A stretch of DNA of 64,000 bases from Mesorhizobium sp. 113-3-3 (GTDB lineage: Bacteria > Pseudomonadota > Alphaproteobacteria > Rhizobiales > Rhizobiaceae), in assembly GCF_016756495.1 (NCBI RefSeq), contig NZ_AP023243.1, positions 4,964,501-5,028,500 on the forward strand, given 5' to 3'. Numbering within the stretch: position 1 is the first letter of the stretch; each line of letters begins with the position of its first letter. The position numbers were made by a program, and so were the translations under genes. Under the pieces are notes generated by a model, which saw only the letters and a program-made list of their open reading frames with translations, did no database searches and was not told the DNA's origin. Below, one piece after another: positions 38,043 to 43,520 of the stretch.

Positions 38043-38960
38043 ATGGTCACATCTCCATCGCTGAAAGGACTTCAGGCCTTCGAGGCTGCGGCGCGCACGG
38101 GCAGCTTTGCCGCGGCGGCGGAAGAGCTTTCGGTCTCGGCGGCGGCTGTCAGCCAGCTTATCCGCACCGTCGAGGAACAGATGGGGCGCAAGCTGTTCCA
38201 CCGGGTCAACCGCAAGGTTGTCCTCACCGAGGCCGGCGTGGAAATGCTGCCACGGTTGACCATGGCCTTCCAGGAAATCGGCAGCGTCTCGCGCGAATTG
38301 GGCGGCGATGCCTTCCGCCCGCGCCTGGTGGTATCGGTGCCACCTTCGATGGCGATGGGCTGGCTTTCGCAGCGCCTCGCCGGCTTCGTCGCAAGCCACG
38401 GCGCCGCAGACATATCGCTGCGCGGCGATGACGACCCGGTGCCGTTCGACCGTGAGCTGATCGATATCAGGCTCTCCTACGGTCCGCATTATCGCGAGCA
38501 CCCGACCGAGGACATCGCCCGGGACGCCGTCTATCCCGTCTGCGCGCCAAAACTTGCCAGCAGGATCAAGGCTGACGGCGGTCCACTCGCAGGGCTGCCG
38601 CTGATCCACACCGATTGGGGACCGACCGGCGCCTCGTTTCCGTCCTGGCGAAACTGGCTCGAGGCGGAAGGCGTCCAGCCCGGCCGGGCGGCGCAGCGCG
38701 GCCTGTCGGCCAACTCGTCGCGCGCCGCCCTCGACCTCGCCATTTCGGGGCTGGGCGTGGCGCTGGCGCAAGGGGTCTATTGTGCCGAAGCGGTGGAGGA
38801 CGGCAGGCTGGTCCGGCCCGCTGCCAGGGCGATCGCGCTGCGCCAGCCCTATTGCCTGACCATTCCCGAACGCAGCGCCAGGCGCGATGTCGTGGCGGCG
38901 TTCCGCGATTGGATGACCGAGGAATGCCGGCGCGCCGTGGGCGCGCCGGCGCTGACCTGA
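38043..38960 (+). CDS. LysR-family regulator, GcvA/AmpR-like subgroup
   Basis: A 305-residue regulator. LKGLQAFEAAARTGSFAAAA, then SAAAVSQLIRTVEEQMG and KLFHRVNRKVVLTEAG form the winged helix-turn-helix typical of GcvA/AmpR relatives. The effector domain is at about 92-295. It is divergent from the desaturase, with a palindrome in the shared promoter, so it likely controls membrane-lipid modification. The effector is unknown. Confidence 0.9.
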   Translation: MVTSPSLKGLQAFEAAARTGSFAAAAEELSVSAAAVSQLIRTVEEQMGRKLFHRVNRKVVLTEAGVEMLPRLTMAFQEIGSVSRELGGDAFRPRLVVSVPPSMAMGWLSQRLAGFVASHGAADISLRGDDDPVPFDRELIDIRLSYGPHYREHPTEDIARDAVYPVCAPKLASRIKADGGPLAGLPLIHTDWGPTGASFPSWRNWLEAEGVQPGRAAQRGLSANSSRAALDLAISGLGVALAQGVYCAEAVEDGRLVRPAARAIALRQPYCLTIPERSARRDVVAAFRDWMTEECRRAVGAPALT

Positions 38961-38972
38961 CGATGGCGATGG

Positions 38973-39245
38973 TCAGAGGTGCCCGCTCAAGGCCGCCACC
39001 ATGTCCTTGCTCGTCGCCACCGGAACAATCTCGAACTCGACCAGATCAGCCCATTCGATCACCCAGCGCTGCAGGAGCGTGACGTCGTCCGTCTCCACCA
39101 GCAGGAAGCAGCGGCTCATATCCGCGGCGATCCAGCTGTGGTGCACGACCAGCTCATCCGGCTTCAGGCGGCCCCGATCGCGGAAGCGACGGTAGATATC
39201 CTTGCGGTCGCAGCCGGTGAAATCCTCGATCACGATGAACTGCAT
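38973..39245 (-). CDS. DUF3303-family small protein
   Basis: A 90-residue protein: MQFIVIEDFTGCDRKDIYRR, LVVHHSWIAADMSRCFLLVE, LLQRWVIEWADLVEFEIVPV. This is the compact alpha/beta pattern of DUF3303, whose function is unknown. It lies 18 bp downstream of the RLAN-RimK gene on the same strand and probably shares its message. Its stop is 12 bp from the end of the convergent LysR gene. Confidence 0.75.
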   Translation of the reverse strand: MQFIVIEDFTGCDRKDIYRRFRDRGRLKPDELVVHHSWIAADMSRCFLLVETDDVTLLQRWVIEWADLVEFEIVPVATSKDMVAALSGHL

Positions 39246-39263
39246 GTTTTCCCCTTGGCTGAA

Positions 39264-40730
39264 CTACTGTCGCCCCGGCCGGTCGAGCCGCTCCAGGAAC
39301 CACTGCGTCAGCCGCACCCAGACCTCGTCCTTCTCGCCGGAGTCCTCCCAGCCGTGGTCGAGATTCGGGTTGTCGTTGACCTCGATGACGAAGACGCCGT
39401 CCTTGGTCTCCTTGAGGTCGACGCCGTAAAGGCCGTCGCCGATGCAGCGTGCCGCCTTGACCGCGGTCTCGACGACATGCGGCGGCGTCTCCTTCAGCGT
39501 GAAGGTCTTGATGCCGCCCTGGTCGGGCTTGCCATTGGCCTTGTGGTTGACGATCTGCCAGTGCTTCTTGGCCATCAGATAGTGCACGGCAAACAGCGGC
39601 TGGCCGCCGAGCACGCCGACGCGCCAGTCATATTCGGTCGGAATGAATTTCTGCGCGATGAGGAGGTCGGAATCTTCCAGCCACTCGGTCGCAAGCCGTG
39701 TCAGTTCCTCGAGATTCTCGCATTTCTTGACGCCGCGCGAGAAGGACGAATCCGGGATCTTCAGCACCAGCGGGAAACCCAGTGTCTGCGCGGCCAGTTC
39801 GAAATCGGAGGTGCCGGCGATCATCACGGTCGGCGGCACCGGCACCTTGTTGTAGGCCATCAGCTCGTTGAGATAGACCTTGTTGGTGCAACGGATCATC
39901 GACAGCGGATCGTCGATGACGGGCATGCCTTCCTGCTGGGCGCGGCGGGCGAAACGATAGGTGTGGTTGGAGATCGAGGTGGTCTCGCGAATGAACAGCG
40001 CATCGTAGTTGGCGAGCTTGGCGAGATCCTTTTTGGTGATGGGCTCGATTTCGACCCCCATCTTTTCGGCGATCTTGGCCCAGTAGCGCAGCGACGAGAT
40101 TTCCGACGGCGGCAGTTCCTCATGCGGATCGACCAGCGTGGCGAAGGTGTAGCGCGCCGGCGTGCGCCCCTTGGTGTCGCGCCACTCGCGGTTGGTGTAG
40201 GTCTCCAGGCACTGGATGAAGTTTTTTTCCTCATCCTCGGTCATGCGCGCCAGCGGATGGAAGCCGATCTTGCGGATCGAAGCCCATTCGGCGCTGTCCT
40301 TGATATGGACCTCGAGCGCCGGCGCCCGGAACCAGTCGAACAACAGCTTGGCGAAGCGGTCCCACACCTTGGAGGGGCCGATGCCGAAGAAGATGCAGAC
40401 CTTGGCCGGAAAGGCGCCGCCGAGGTCCTTGCGGCATTTGTTGAGCGCCAGTTCCAGTTCCGGCAGCGCATGCTCGTAGAGCTTGCGTTCCGACAGGTCG
40501 ATCATCGTCTCGACGGTCGGGATGACCTTGTGGCCGCGCGAGCTCGCCAGCAGCGAGGCGTAGTAGCCGCGGCTCTGGTAGCCGTAATTGTTCGACAGGT
40601 TGATGACCTTCGGCCGCTGGCCACGAAACAGCGAAGGATGCGCGAGATAGTCGCGGTTGGTGATGATCTTATGCGGTGTCGCCACCTGGTCGAGATCGCT
40701 CTGCCGGCCGGTAAGGATGACCCAGGTCAT
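39264..40730 (-). CDS. RLAN-domain RimK-like ATP-grasp ligase
   Basis: A 488-residue protein. The N-terminal half (LSNNYGYQSRGYYASLLA, PAKVCIFFGIGPSKV) matches the RimK-like ATP-grasp N-terminal (RLAN) domain. The C-terminal half, about 270-475, is an ATP-grasp: IRCTNKVYLNELM, FPLVLKIPDSSFSRGVKK, DWRVGVLGG and VFVIEVNDNPNLDHGWED with Mg-binding Glu/Asn. Such enzymes join an amine to a carboxylate through an acyl phosphate, as in RimK glutamylation. The substrate is unknown. The start overlaps the stop of the GNAT-C39 gene (40727-40730). Confidence 0.87.
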   Translation of the reverse strand: MTWVILTGRQSDLDQVATPHKIITNRDYLAHPSLFRGQRPKVINLSNNYGYQSRGYYASLLASSRGHKVIPTVETMIDLSERKLYEHALPELELALNKCRKDLGGAFPAKVCIFFGIGPSKVWDRFAKLLFDWFRAPALEVHIKDSAEWASIRKIGFHPLARMTEDEEKNFIQCLETYTNREWRDTKGRTPARYTFATLVDPHEELPPSEISSLRYWAKIAEKMGVEIEPITKKDLAKLANYDALFIRETTSISNHTYRFARRAQQEGMPVIDDPLSMIRCTNKVYLNELMAYNKVPVPPTVMIAGTSDFELAAQTLGFPLVLKIPDSSFSRGVKKCENLEELTRLATEWLEDSDLLIAQKFIPTEYDWRVGVLGGQPLFAVHYLMAKKHWQIVNHKANGKPDQGGIKTFTLKETPPHVVETAVKAARCIGDGLYGVDLKETKDGVFVIEVNDNPNLDHGWEDSGEKDEVWVRLTQWFLERLDRPGRQ

Positions 40731-41833
40731 TTTGTGTCGCGCTTCCCCAGAGTGATGGCGGCACGCAGTCCGTCGCGGCCGAACTGCGCCATGTTCATGA
40801 AGATGCCGTAGGGCACGGGAATGTTGGCGGCATCAAGGATGGTTTCCTGCCTCTCGTCCTCGACCCAGGGATCGTGGATCAGAATATGATCGCCGTCATC
40901 GCCGATGGCCAGCACCCAATGCGGCACCTTCTTGCCGAACATCAGGAAGCCGCTGATCAGCACCAGCACCAGTTTTCCCGCGGCGATGGCGGTTTTGATG
41001 TCGTCGATGGTGAACGGGCGATAATTCACCGGGATGCCATATTGTTCCGCGCGGCGGCGAAAGTCGACCTGGGCCAGTTCCATCACCCGGCGCTTGTCCT
41101 CGCTGCGCACCGACTGCAGGAACAGTGCGCCGTAGAAGGAAACGAAGATCTCCGCCGCGAGGCCGCTTTCATACCCGGAAACAGCCAGGCCGAATGGTTC
41201 GCAGCCGCCCGGCCCCGACATCATGAAGACGGTCGTCGCCTCGCGCCAGAGGCGAATTTCCATCACCGGATCGGGCACGAAATCCCGGTCGAAATTCGCC
41301 ATGGCCATCATCAGGCAGCACGGGCCGCAGGTGAATTCGCAGGTCTGCTGGTAGAACGGCACTCTTGTGGCCACCGGAAGGTCGCCGCGCAGGGTTTTCT
41401 CATAACGAAGCGCGGTCGCACCGTCCTCGTAATAGCCCGGCTCGCGGCCAATCTTGCGGTAGCCGGCCTGCTCGTAGATGCGGATGGCCCGGCCGTTGTC
41501 CTCGCGCACTTCCAGACGCAGCATCATGCGGTCGTGCTCGAAGGCCGCCTCCTCAGCCGCCGTCAAAAGCTGGCGCCCGATGCCGAGCGCGCCGAAAAAA
41601 GGACCGACGGCTATGGAGTAGAGCCGCGCCACGCCACTGCCCTTGCGAAACAGCACGATCGCGTAGCCGGCGACGCGGCCATCGACTTCGGCGACCAGCG
41701 TCTCGGCGGTCTCGCGCTCGATGAACAGGCGAAAGGAGCGACGGGAGATGCGATCGCTCGAGAAAACGGCTTTCTCGATGGCGGCGAGATCATCGACGTC
41801 AGACGCGCGGGCCGTACGGATCTCGGCAGGCAT
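40727..41833 (-). CDS. GNAT acetyltransferase / C39-like cysteine peptidase fusion
   Basis: A 368-residue two-domain protein. Residues 1-150 are a GNAT domain (IRTARASDVDDLAAIEKAVF, GALGIGRQLLTAAEEAAF, RIYEQAGYRKIGR). Residues 155-340 are a papain-like C39 peptidase: Q162-Q163-T-C-E-F-T-C169-G-P, with His305 (VPHWVLAIG) and Asp321 (IHDPW) forming a plausible triad. Coupling by a 4-nt overlap to an RLAN-RimK ligase gives a peptide-synthesis, processing and capping set that has been predicted from genomics but, to my knowledge, not functionally solved. Confidence 0.85.
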   Translation of the reverse strand: MPAEIRTARASDVDDLAAIEKAVFSSDRISRRSFRLFIERETAETLVAEVDGRVAGYAIVLFRKGSGVARLYSIAVGPFFGALGIGRQLLTAAEEAAFEHDRMMLRLEVREDNGRAIRIYEQAGYRKIGREPGYYEDGATALRYEKTLRGDLPVATRVPFYQQTCEFTCGPCCLMMAMANFDRDFVPDPVMEIRLWREATTVFMMSGPGGCEPFGLAVSGYESGLAAEIFVSFYGALFLQSVRSEDKRRVMELAQVDFRRRAEQYGIPVNYRPFTIDDIKTAIAAGKLVLVLISGFLMFGKKVPHWVLAIGDDGDHILIHDPWVEDERQETILDAANIPVPYGIFMNMAQFGRDGLRAAITLGKRDTK

Positions 41834-42017
41834 GCGACTTGAGAAAACCTCGATTGCGTTGCGGAAACGGCCCGGTCAAAAGCGTCGCAAACACCGGCCG
41901 AAGCGCCGGTATTCATCAAGCGCTATCGCTCCTTGATTAGGGCCGAATTGTGACAGTTTCCGCGGCGGCAAGGAAGCCCGCGAGCTTTGAACAGGATCGC
42001 TGTTTTGACGGACCACC

Positions 42018-42037
42018 GGCCGCGAATAATCGCGGCC
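42018..42037 (-). terminator. Hairpin after the anti-sigma gene
   Basis: GGCCGCG-AATAAT-CGCGGCC forms a 7-bp GC stem immediately downstream of the anti-sigma stop. There is no adjacent T run, so termination is only suggested. The remainder of the 41834-42039 gap shows nothing else. Confidence 0.45.
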
Positions 42038-42039
42038 GC

Positions 42040-42831
42040 TCAGCTTGCGAGGCCAGCCAGAAGCTGGCCATAGGCACTCTTGGCCACGGCCGCCAATTGC
42101 TCGCGCGGCAGCGAGCCGACGACGGCGCAGCCATAGCCCTTGTCCAGCCAGTAGACCGCCTGCGGACCGTCCTGCGCCGAAGCATAGATGCCCTTGGCGT
42201 TCTCCGTTGATTCCGCGGTGACGAAGAGCGATACGCGCTCACCCTTGTCGTCCTCGTAGAGCAGCATCGCGGCCTTGCTGTCGCCGGCGGGCAGCAACCG
42301 GCCGCCAATCAGTTGGAAGCCGTTCGCGGTCAGGTCCGGCGCCACCAGCTTCAGCCCGACTCTATTGGACAGCCAGGTCTGCAAATGATCCTTGTCGCTG
42401 GCCGGCACTTCCACAGCATGCCGCTTCTCGGCGGCGTAGATGACATGGGCGGCAATCGCCTGTTCGGCAAGCCGATCCTCCGCCGGATCCTCCTGTGCGG
42501 TGCCGTCGATGCCGGCAAAATAACCGCCAAAACCGCCCGTGGCCAAAAGCACGGCCGCTGCGGCGGCAAGCCACCAGCGCGAGCGCGGCGCCGCAGCCTT
42601 AACGGGCGCCTCGCCGAGCACCACCTTGCGCAAGCGCGCGGGAACAGGCTCATCCGGCACGCCGGCAAAGGCCGAGCGCAATGCCTCCCGGTCGGCTGTG
42701 AAGCGGGCGCTCCTGGCCCTCATCTCGGGGTTGGCGTCGAGCCAGGCATCATAGGCGGCACGCTCGTCGGCCGGCAGTTCGCCGTCGAGCGCCATGTGGA
42801 TGTCACGTTCTGAAAAATCGCGGCGGATCAT
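42040..42831 (-). CDS. Transmembrane anti-sigma factor
   Basis: A 263-residue protein with a short cytoplasmic N-domain (IHMALDGELPADERAAYDAW) that fits an anti-sigma fold without an HxxxCxxC zinc motif. One membrane segment follows near 86-108 (WWLAAAAAVLLATGGFGGYF), then a periplasmic domain (FQLIGGRLLPAGDSKAAMLL). It would hold the ECF sigma factor at the membrane until a signal arrives. It overlaps the sigma gene by 4 nt (42828-42831), the usual order. Confidence 0.88.
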   Translation of the reverse strand: MIRRDFSERDIHMALDGELPADERAAYDAWLDANPEMRARSARFTADREALRSAFAGVPDEPVPARLRKVVLGEAPVKAAAPRSRWWLAAAAAVLLATGGFGGYFAGIDGTAQEDPAEDRLAEQAIAAHVIYAAEKRHAVEVPASDKDHLQTWLSNRVGLKLVAPDLTANGFQLIGGRLLPAGDSKAAMLLYEDDKGERVSLFVTAESTENAKGIYASAQDGPQAVYWLDKGYGCAVVGSLPREQLAAVAKSAYGQLLAGLAS

Positions 42832-43346
42832 TTCTCGACGATCCTTATGGCGCGGCGGCGCGCCGTGTCATCCAGCAAGCCGCGCAGTTCCTCACGTCCG
42901 CGTGCGATGCGCGACATCAGCGTGCCGGCGGGCACGCCCAGCATGTTGGCGGCCTCGGCATAGGAGAAGCCTTCGATGGCGACCAGGACAAGGGCCGCGC
43001 GGCGATCGGGGCTGATCGCATGCAGCGCGTCGATGATCTCACGCGAGGCGATGCCCTCCAGCTGCTCGGCTGGCTGGGCAACCGCCTCGCCTGCTTCCAG
43101 GGGCAGCATCGCCGCTTCGCCGCGACGGTTCACCTTGCGCATCTGGTCGATGAACAAATGATGCATGATCGTAAACAGCCACCTCCTGGGGCTTTCTCCC
43201 GTCTGCCAGTTGTCGAGCCGCATCAGTGCGCGCTCGAGGCAGTCCTGAACGAGGTCGTCGGCAGAATCGCGGTCGCGCAACAGCGAGCGTGCGTAGCGGC
43301 GCAGGCGCGGTATTTCGCCGAGGATTGCTGCCTTCTTTTCGTCCAT
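42828..43346 (-). CDS. ECF-type RNA polymerase sigma factor
   Basis: A 172-residue sigma-70 family protein. Region 2 is RDRDSADDLVQDCLERAL with PRRWLFTIMHHLFIDQMRK. Region 4 is LVAIEGFSYAEAANMLGVPA with GTLMSRIARGRE. It has no region 1 or 3. ATG 43346 matches the family start. It is co-encoded with a transmembrane anti-sigma factor, so it likely responds to envelope or oxidative stress. The regulon is unknown and I could not identify a self-recognised promoter upstream. Confidence 0.92.
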   Translation of the reverse strand: MDEKKAAILGEIPRLRRYARSLLRDRDSADDLVQDCLERALMRLDNWQTGESPRRWLFTIMHHLFIDQMRKVNRRGEAAMLPLEAGEAVAQPAEQLEGIASREIIDALHAISPDRRAALVLVAIEGFSYAEAANMLGVPAGTLMSRIARGREELRGLLDDTARRRAIRIVEK

Positions 43347-43520
43347 GACCGCTGGTTCTGAAATCGCCCTTATTGAACCCGATTCAACGCGCCTTCCGAG
43401 CGCGACGCAAGCGGCCAGCGCGAAGCGGTCCGCCGCCCCGGTCACCCAAGCAATGAGATAACGAGAGGATTGGTCAAATTATTCCCGACCAGACTGAAAT
43501 CTTGTTGTTCTTGCTTGCCT

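Follow-up and report, generated by a model that had tools for sequence, protein, structure and literature searches.

A conserved acetyltransferase and RLAN ligase pair with an optional papain-like peptidase domain at a Mesorhizobium locus

Three genes for an RLAN-RimK-type ligase, an acetyltransferase fused to a papain-like peptidase and a small DUF3303 protein lie together in the window (i.e., the whole stretch of 64,000 nucleotides of Mesorhizobium sp. 113-3-3 that was analysed), and the question they raise is which of these parts form a conserved unit and what that unit may make. The first-pass annotation had described three packed, co-directional genes with these domains, and its domains and coordinates were confirmed by ORF calls and Pfam. 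All three genes are on the minus strand and are transcribed in the order GNAT-peptidase, RLAN ligase, DUF3303, with a 4-nt overlap between the GNAT-DUF3335 and ligase genes and a gap of 18 bp from the ligase to DUF3303. The features are as follows:

40727..41833, minus strand: GNAT-DUF3335 protein of 368 aa, a fusion of acetyltransferase and papain-like peptidase (ORF, Pfam)
41384..41833, minus strand: GNAT domain of this protein, residues 1-150, RimI/Ard1-like (Pfam, NCBIfam, structure comparison)
40748..41362, minus strand: papain-like DUF3335 domain, residues 158-362, with Q163, C169, H305 and D321 (Pfam, alignment)
39264..40730, minus strand: RLAN-RimK-type ATP-grasp ligase of 488 aa (ORF, Pfam)
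40215..40655, minus strand: RLAN domain of the ligase, residues 26-172 (Pfam)
39354..39884, minus strand: RimK-type ATP-grasp domain of the ligase, residues 283-459, with K324, D438, E450 and N452 (Pfam, structure comparison, alignment)
38973..39245, minus strand: DUF3303 protein of 90 aa, a lineage-specific neighbour (ORF, Pfam)
41926..41955, minus strand: 30-nt element upstream of the GNAT gene, candidate promoter or operator (upstream alignment, genome search)

In Pfam, the fusion protein matches PF00583 at 60.3 bits and PF11814 (DUF3335) at 256 bits against a gathering score of 25 bits, with the Cys/His/Asp triad present; the ligase matches PF14401 (RLAN) at 129.1 bits, where the gathering score is also 25 bits, and PF08443 (RimK) at 41.7 bits; and the small protein matches PF11746 at 95.7 bits. 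The AlphaFold2 models of the GNAT-DUF3335 protein and of the ligase both have a mean pLDDT of 88.1. Among the matches listed, named Mesorhizobium records reach 98% identity to the window ligase. None of the three proteins matched a PADLOC family (E ≤ 0.001), and no Rfam regulatory RNA reached its gathering score in 38900-42100. Upstream of the GNAT gene, the 30-nt element has no second copy in the genome when up to 2 mismatches are allowed, and the window holds one match to its 21-nt core versus 0.03 expected. The exact core occurs in 21 of 223 loci, several of which are overlapping copies of one place. Judged by eye in the visible part of the alignment, the element stands ahead of the GNAT gene in a large share of the Mesorhizobium group and becomes weaker in more distant members, and it can be regarded as a candidate promoter or operator. 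A short ORF near 41890 was considered as a leader peptide and rejected, its start not being kept among relatives in the part of the alignment inspected by eye.

The conservation of the genes was followed in 142 RLAN-ligase loci, namely the window, 61 loci from sampled genomes and a further 80 that are the best of 575 in named records (these may duplicate other sampled genomes and include Mesorhizobium, Azospirillum and Pseudomonas). The genome samples comprised 150 genomes of the order and 249 of the phylum; the phylum sample held 52 RLAN places, of which 4 duplicated ones in the order sample; from the remaining 48, 32 were taken, mostly avoiding repeats of one genus. Clustering at 70% ligase identity gave 55 ligase groups, and gene calls at the relatives' loci were made by script and are approximate. 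RLAN was found in 30 of the 150 order genomes and in 49 of the 249 phylum genomes, that is to say, roughly one sampled genome in five has the ligase at either level.

In 141 of the 142 loci the ligase has a GNAT domain within about 1 kb or fused to it; among called genes farther than 1.5 kb away, the same GNAT profile matches 3 of 1007, and the link is therefore not due to chance. Every member carries the GNAT in 54 of the 55 groups; the sole locus without one nearby, L099 in genome G327, is accompanied by a GNAT-DUF3335 gene on another contig (L127). The partnership is kept while its arrangement varies (co-directional in 120 loci, divergent in 16, fused in 4 and downstream in 1), and among 54 group representatives the GNAT and ligase distances are correlated (r 0.42, which 0 of 1000 permutations reached). 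Partners with a GNAT only were scanned for 21 of 30 cases, and all 21 gave matches (E ≤ 0.001) to GNAT families of Pfam and to the RimI model. With the whole GNAT-peptidase protein as query, the peptidase had come up as a candidate constant partner; this was rejected, since domain-split queries show that it is the GNAT which is constant. DUF3335 is in 86 of the 142 loci and missing from 56, and DUF3303 adjoins the ligase in 16, all inside the window's own ligase group. From these three counts it follows that the conserved core is GNAT plus ligase, the peptidase being an optional extra. The expectation that all three genes stay together was thus borne out for GNAT and ligase but not for the other two parts: a three-gene system was rejected on the DUF3303 count, DUF3303 is probably not part of the core, and the term was not found in the literature searched. 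With a core of GNAT and ligase, the problem shrinks to a two-enzyme assay.

The presence of DUF3335 switches at least 25 times on the FastTree ligase tree; at least one member carries it in 34 of the 55 groups, and 6 groups are mixed. Seven of the 38 loci in the window's own group have the GNAT only (L146, L152, L153, L155, L157, L161 and L199). By genome, DUF3335 occurs in 15 of 150 of the order and 40 of 249 of the phylum, and RLAN is present in 15 of those 15 and 39 of those 40; in the phylum sample, 37 of 43 DUF3335 places lie within 3 kb of RLAN and 6 have no ligase nearby. Natural strains that have the peptidase, such as M. ciceri (L134), and others with the GNAT only, such as Mesorhizobium soli (L199), offer a route to its role.

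Where the domain is present, its active site is intact. The triad C169/H305/D321 had been placed correctly in the first reading of the sequence: C169, H305 and the oxyanion-type Q163 are each conserved in 92 of 92 DUF3335 domains, and position 321 has D in 85 domains and E in the other 7. The "C39" label given to the domain holds in part, in that PF11814 is described as Peptidase_C39 like and PF13529 (Peptidase_C39_2) matches at 26.5 bits (cut-off 24 bits), but the peptidase family found in bacteriocin exporters, PF03412, gave no match at E ≤ 0.001. In the Pfam scan, no ABC-transporter family was found among nine proteins around the locus.

These results bear on whether the module matures a ribosomally made peptide, with DUF3335 cutting a leader, the ligase cross-linking or extending the product and the GNAT capping its N-terminus. 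ATP-grasp ligases and papain-like peptidases do occur in ribosomal-peptide pathways. However, small-ORF families (18 aa, E 1e-4, within 1 kb of the module) reach no more than 2 of the 55 ligase groups, in agreement with the earlier statement that no precursor is adjacent, although divergent or distant precursors would escape such a search; neighbour families other than GNAT and DUF3335, transporters included (BLASTP E 1e-8, ORFs of 50 aa, within 6 kb), are limited to at most 6 of 55; and not every locus has the peptidase. This reading is very improbable, and bacteriocin-type maturation was rejected on the lack of a PF03412 match and of any recurrent precursor or other neighbour. Some neighbour families do reach 3 to 6 of the 55 ligase groups.

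As for the ligase, K324, D438, E450 and N452 of the ATP-grasp domain and N44, Y56, L60, R65 and P71 of RLAN are aligned and identical in 142 of 142 ligases. Loss of the triad or of the ATP-grasp ligands in an alignment had been named beforehand as fatal to the proposal, and these residues are kept. Residues 194-484 of the predicted model have the same fold as LysX/ArgX/RimK in structure comparison, i.e., the RimK-type ATP-grasp fold and its ATP/metal residues were both found. Structure alignments covered 43 ligases (the window and 42 of the 80 named loci, with L159, L171 and L174 left out and the range of L165 shortened) and 32 GNAT-peptidases (the window and 31 of 49), and the structure-search matches came from the ATP-grasp and GNAT halves of the two models. 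All NCBIfam matches listed, 15 for the ligase and 10 for the GNAT-DUF3335 protein, fall under the curated cut-offs: the best for the ligase is LysX_arch at 88.5 bits, the RimK family TIGR00768 scores 86.0 against 143.4 bits, and the S6 ligase NF007764 scores 28.2 against 331 bits. Judged by its sequence, the protein is probably an amide-forming amino-acid ligase. A LysW carrier system was rejected, as LysW was found in none of the 32 genomes searched, with the control of this search giving a match in 4 of 14.

In the acetyltransferase, E108 and Y135 are conserved in 141 of 141. The best match of the window GNAT is RimI (TIGR01575, 78.2 against 86.4 bits, under the cut-off), a separate RimI is encoded in the same genome, and the predicted model has a fold like that of RimI/Ard1 in structure comparison. 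RimI and Ard1 acetylate peptide N-termini.

Putting these results together, the reading we prefer, with a probability of about 0.5, is that GNAT and ligase make an N-acetylated short peptide or amino-acid conjugate, and that the papain-like domain hydrolyses or remodels the product. From the predicted activities, such a product is the simplest joint one of the two enzymes. We infer the following chemistry and order of steps. The RimI/Ard1-like GNAT would transfer an acetyl group from acetyl-CoA to an alpha-amine, although the donor could be another acyl-CoA; the RLAN ATP-grasp ligase, in the manner of LysX/ArgX/RimK, would activate a carboxylate with ATP and couple it to an amino-acid amine; and if acetylation came first, the amine would be protected, as in NAAG and NAGGN synthesis. 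RLAN may bind the acceptor or recruit the GNAT. In loci that have DUF3335, this domain would act on the product of the two enzymes by hydrolysis or transfer, and such a role would account for its being fused to the GNAT as well as for the recurrent gain or loss of the domain. For DUF3335 fused to GNAT, the best reading is thus that of an optional hydrolase or transferase acting on the module's product. One genome, G154, agrees with a role of this domain in acetyl-peptide turnover, though a single case proves nothing: its GNAT-DUF3335 gene (L128) stands with DUF2817 and DUF155 genes about 1.7 kb past the M42 peptidase gene that follows a NAGGN synthetase gene, and the RLAN ligase (L117) has a GNAT partner without DUF3335. 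The earlier proposal that the genes synthesise, trim and cap a tag or peptide is upheld as far as a ligase and an acetyltransferase with intact residues and probable amide chemistry are concerned, but a fixed line of this kind is not conserved, because the peptidase is absent from so many loci and toggles repeatedly. Peptide tagging fits the data no better than a capped small peptide or conjugate does.

The likeness of the GNAT, in sequence and predicted fold, to enzymes acting on protein N-termini and not on free amino acids counts against the preferred reading, as do the scores of both proteins under the curated NCBIfam cut-offs, the L099 locus with its lack of a nearby GNAT and the 6 DUF3335 places that have no ligase nearby. 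The main rival is reversible protein tagging, in which the ligase would extend a protein C-terminus, the GNAT would acetylate the N-terminus of the protein or tag, and the papain-like domain would remove the tag. RimK adds amino acids to the C-terminus of S6, and it is because modifiers of ribosomal proteins, namely RimK and RimI, are among the closest solved relatives of the two enzymes that a protein tag is kept in play as possible, if doubtful. In 6 loci, belonging to two ligase groups, a DUF2817 gene, presumably for an M14-carboxypeptidase-like protein, is also found no more than 1.5 kb from the ligase. Deubiquitinases and comparable tag-removing enzymes have the papain fold (PMC10318531, available part), and RimABK provides a protease that regulates a RimK ligase (PMC11957791, available part). 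Against a tag stand the low recurrence of neighbour and small-ORF families, which leaves no recurrent target gene, the absence of the putative eraser from 56 loci, and the GNAT as constant partner, an acetyltransferase that a tag system would not have to retain in almost all loci. A bolder form, in which the module is a dedicated reversible tag of Pseudomonadota, an independent counterpart of tubulin tyrosination/glutamylation whose ligase writes on one protein end, whose GNAT caps and whose optional papain-like domain erases, is unlikely.

Another possibility is detoxification or salvage, that is, the pair would conjugate and acetylate a toxic amine or amino acid, the papain-like domain would release it, and the linkage would reflect a shared substrate. 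The patchy spread of the ligase and the lack of fixed pathway neighbours suit it, as do weak matches (E ≤ 0.001) of the GNAT-only partners to NCBIfam models of streptothricin, arsinothricin and aminoglycoside acetyltransferases. The window protein, however, is far under the streptothricin and arsinothricin cut-offs, with RimI as its best match; moreover, an acetyltransferase alone is usually enough for this purpose, yet a costly ligase is nearly always alongside. We regard this explanation as quite improbable, and an acetylated small peptide or conjugate remains the preferred product.

Iyer et al. (2009) are reportedly the cited source for GNAT-DUF3335 fusions. It has been stated, in the available part of PMC10318531, that DUF3335 is often fused to GNAT, with a suggested role in peptide ligation or acetylation, and in that of PMC4431377 that other ATP-grasp families have GNAT neighbours, with acyl capping suggested. 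The available part of PMC2922099 does not mention RimK, and PMC9756463 contains "RimK family protein" once. Since the fusions are in print with suggested roles, this kind of system is known as a prediction; no experiments on the module, its substrate or its product were found in the titles and abstract openings of the literature searched, which placed most subscription journals outside its scope. The present analysis adds the measured GNAT-ligase core, the finding that the peptidase is optional, and the resemblance between the GNAT and RimI.

Among known systems, RimABK likewise joins a RimK ligase to a protease, RimB, but that protease is retropepsin-like, the one in the window is papain-like, and the window ligase is under the RimK cut-offs (PMC11957791 and PMC4741518, available parts). 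NAGGN synthetase links two glutamines, one of which it acetylates (PMC8070244, available part). It resembles the module in being a GNAT plus ATP-grasp unit, fused there and in 4 of the 142 loci here, and differs in that its ATP-grasp half is cyanophycin-synthetase-like and without RLAN, that the window GNAT scores 22.7 against 569 bits (TIGR03103), and that the window genes are separate. RLAN occurs in 6 of 23 NAGGN genomes versus 49 of 249 overall (Fisher p 0.41), so that the two distributions look independent and replacement of the NAGGN pathway, which would show as avoidance, was rejected. In the brain, N-acetylaspartate is made by NAT8L, a GNAT. RIMKLA and RIMKLB then join glutamate to it (PMC3872778, available part); this NAAG synthesis likewise combines an acetylated amino acid with a RimK-like ligase, but is eukaryotic and comparable with the module in logic only. 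RimI/Ard1 share the predicted GNAT fold, but the window GNAT is under the RimI cut-off in a genome with a RimI of its own. Finally, LysX/ArgX/RimK share with the window ligase the predicted fold and the conserved ATP/metal residues, whereas the window ligase has an N-terminal RLAN domain, a near-constant GNAT partner and scores far under their cut-offs of 275.6, 143.4 and 331 bits.

The replacement of the triad residue Asp321 by Glu was found in 7 of the 92 DUF3335 (papain-like peptidase) domains compared, namely those from loci L105, L118, L119, L120, L121, L123 and L128, and these coincide exactly with the seven loci having a DUF2817 gene. In six of them (L105, L118, L119, L120, L121 and L123), which represent two ligase groups at 70% identity, the DUF2817 gene lies downstream of the RLAN ligase and no more than 1.5 kb from it, and four of the six also encode a relative of the DUF155 protein close by. 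The coincidence of Glu321 with DUF2817 may be explained by shared ancestry.

DUF3335 proteins also exist away from the ligase or in duplicate. The own genome encodes a second one, for which neither a GNAT match nor a nearby ligase was found, and its position 320 is occupied by a residue other than His:

L124 7300-8370 (C1:983749-984360), second DUF3335 protein of the own genome

In genome G331, about 8 kb separates two DUF3335 paralogues; on either side lies a 143-aa gene whose first 60 residues are identical, and this stretch (L125) is suggested to be duplicated or mobile. In addition, genome G202 carries two RLAN ligases (L097 and L098), one divergent from GNAT-DUF3335 and the other divergent from GNAT alone.

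Upstream of the GNAT gene, the window contains the following features:

41926-41955, minus strand, conserved 30-nt element
42040-43445, minus strand, gene for an ECF sigma factor and an anti-sigma-like gene that overlaps it, at a distance of about 200 bp

The 30-nt element occurs only once in the genome, with up to 2 mismatches allowed. At loci L049-L051 and L129-L132, the position of the sigma/anti-sigma-like pair is held by genes matching it in size and spacing.

As for the N-acetylglutaminylglutamine (NAGGN) system, the GNAT-DUF3335, DUF2817 and DUF155 genes of L128 (genome G154) are located about 1.7 kb past an M42 peptidase gene, which itself follows a NAGGN synthetase gene.
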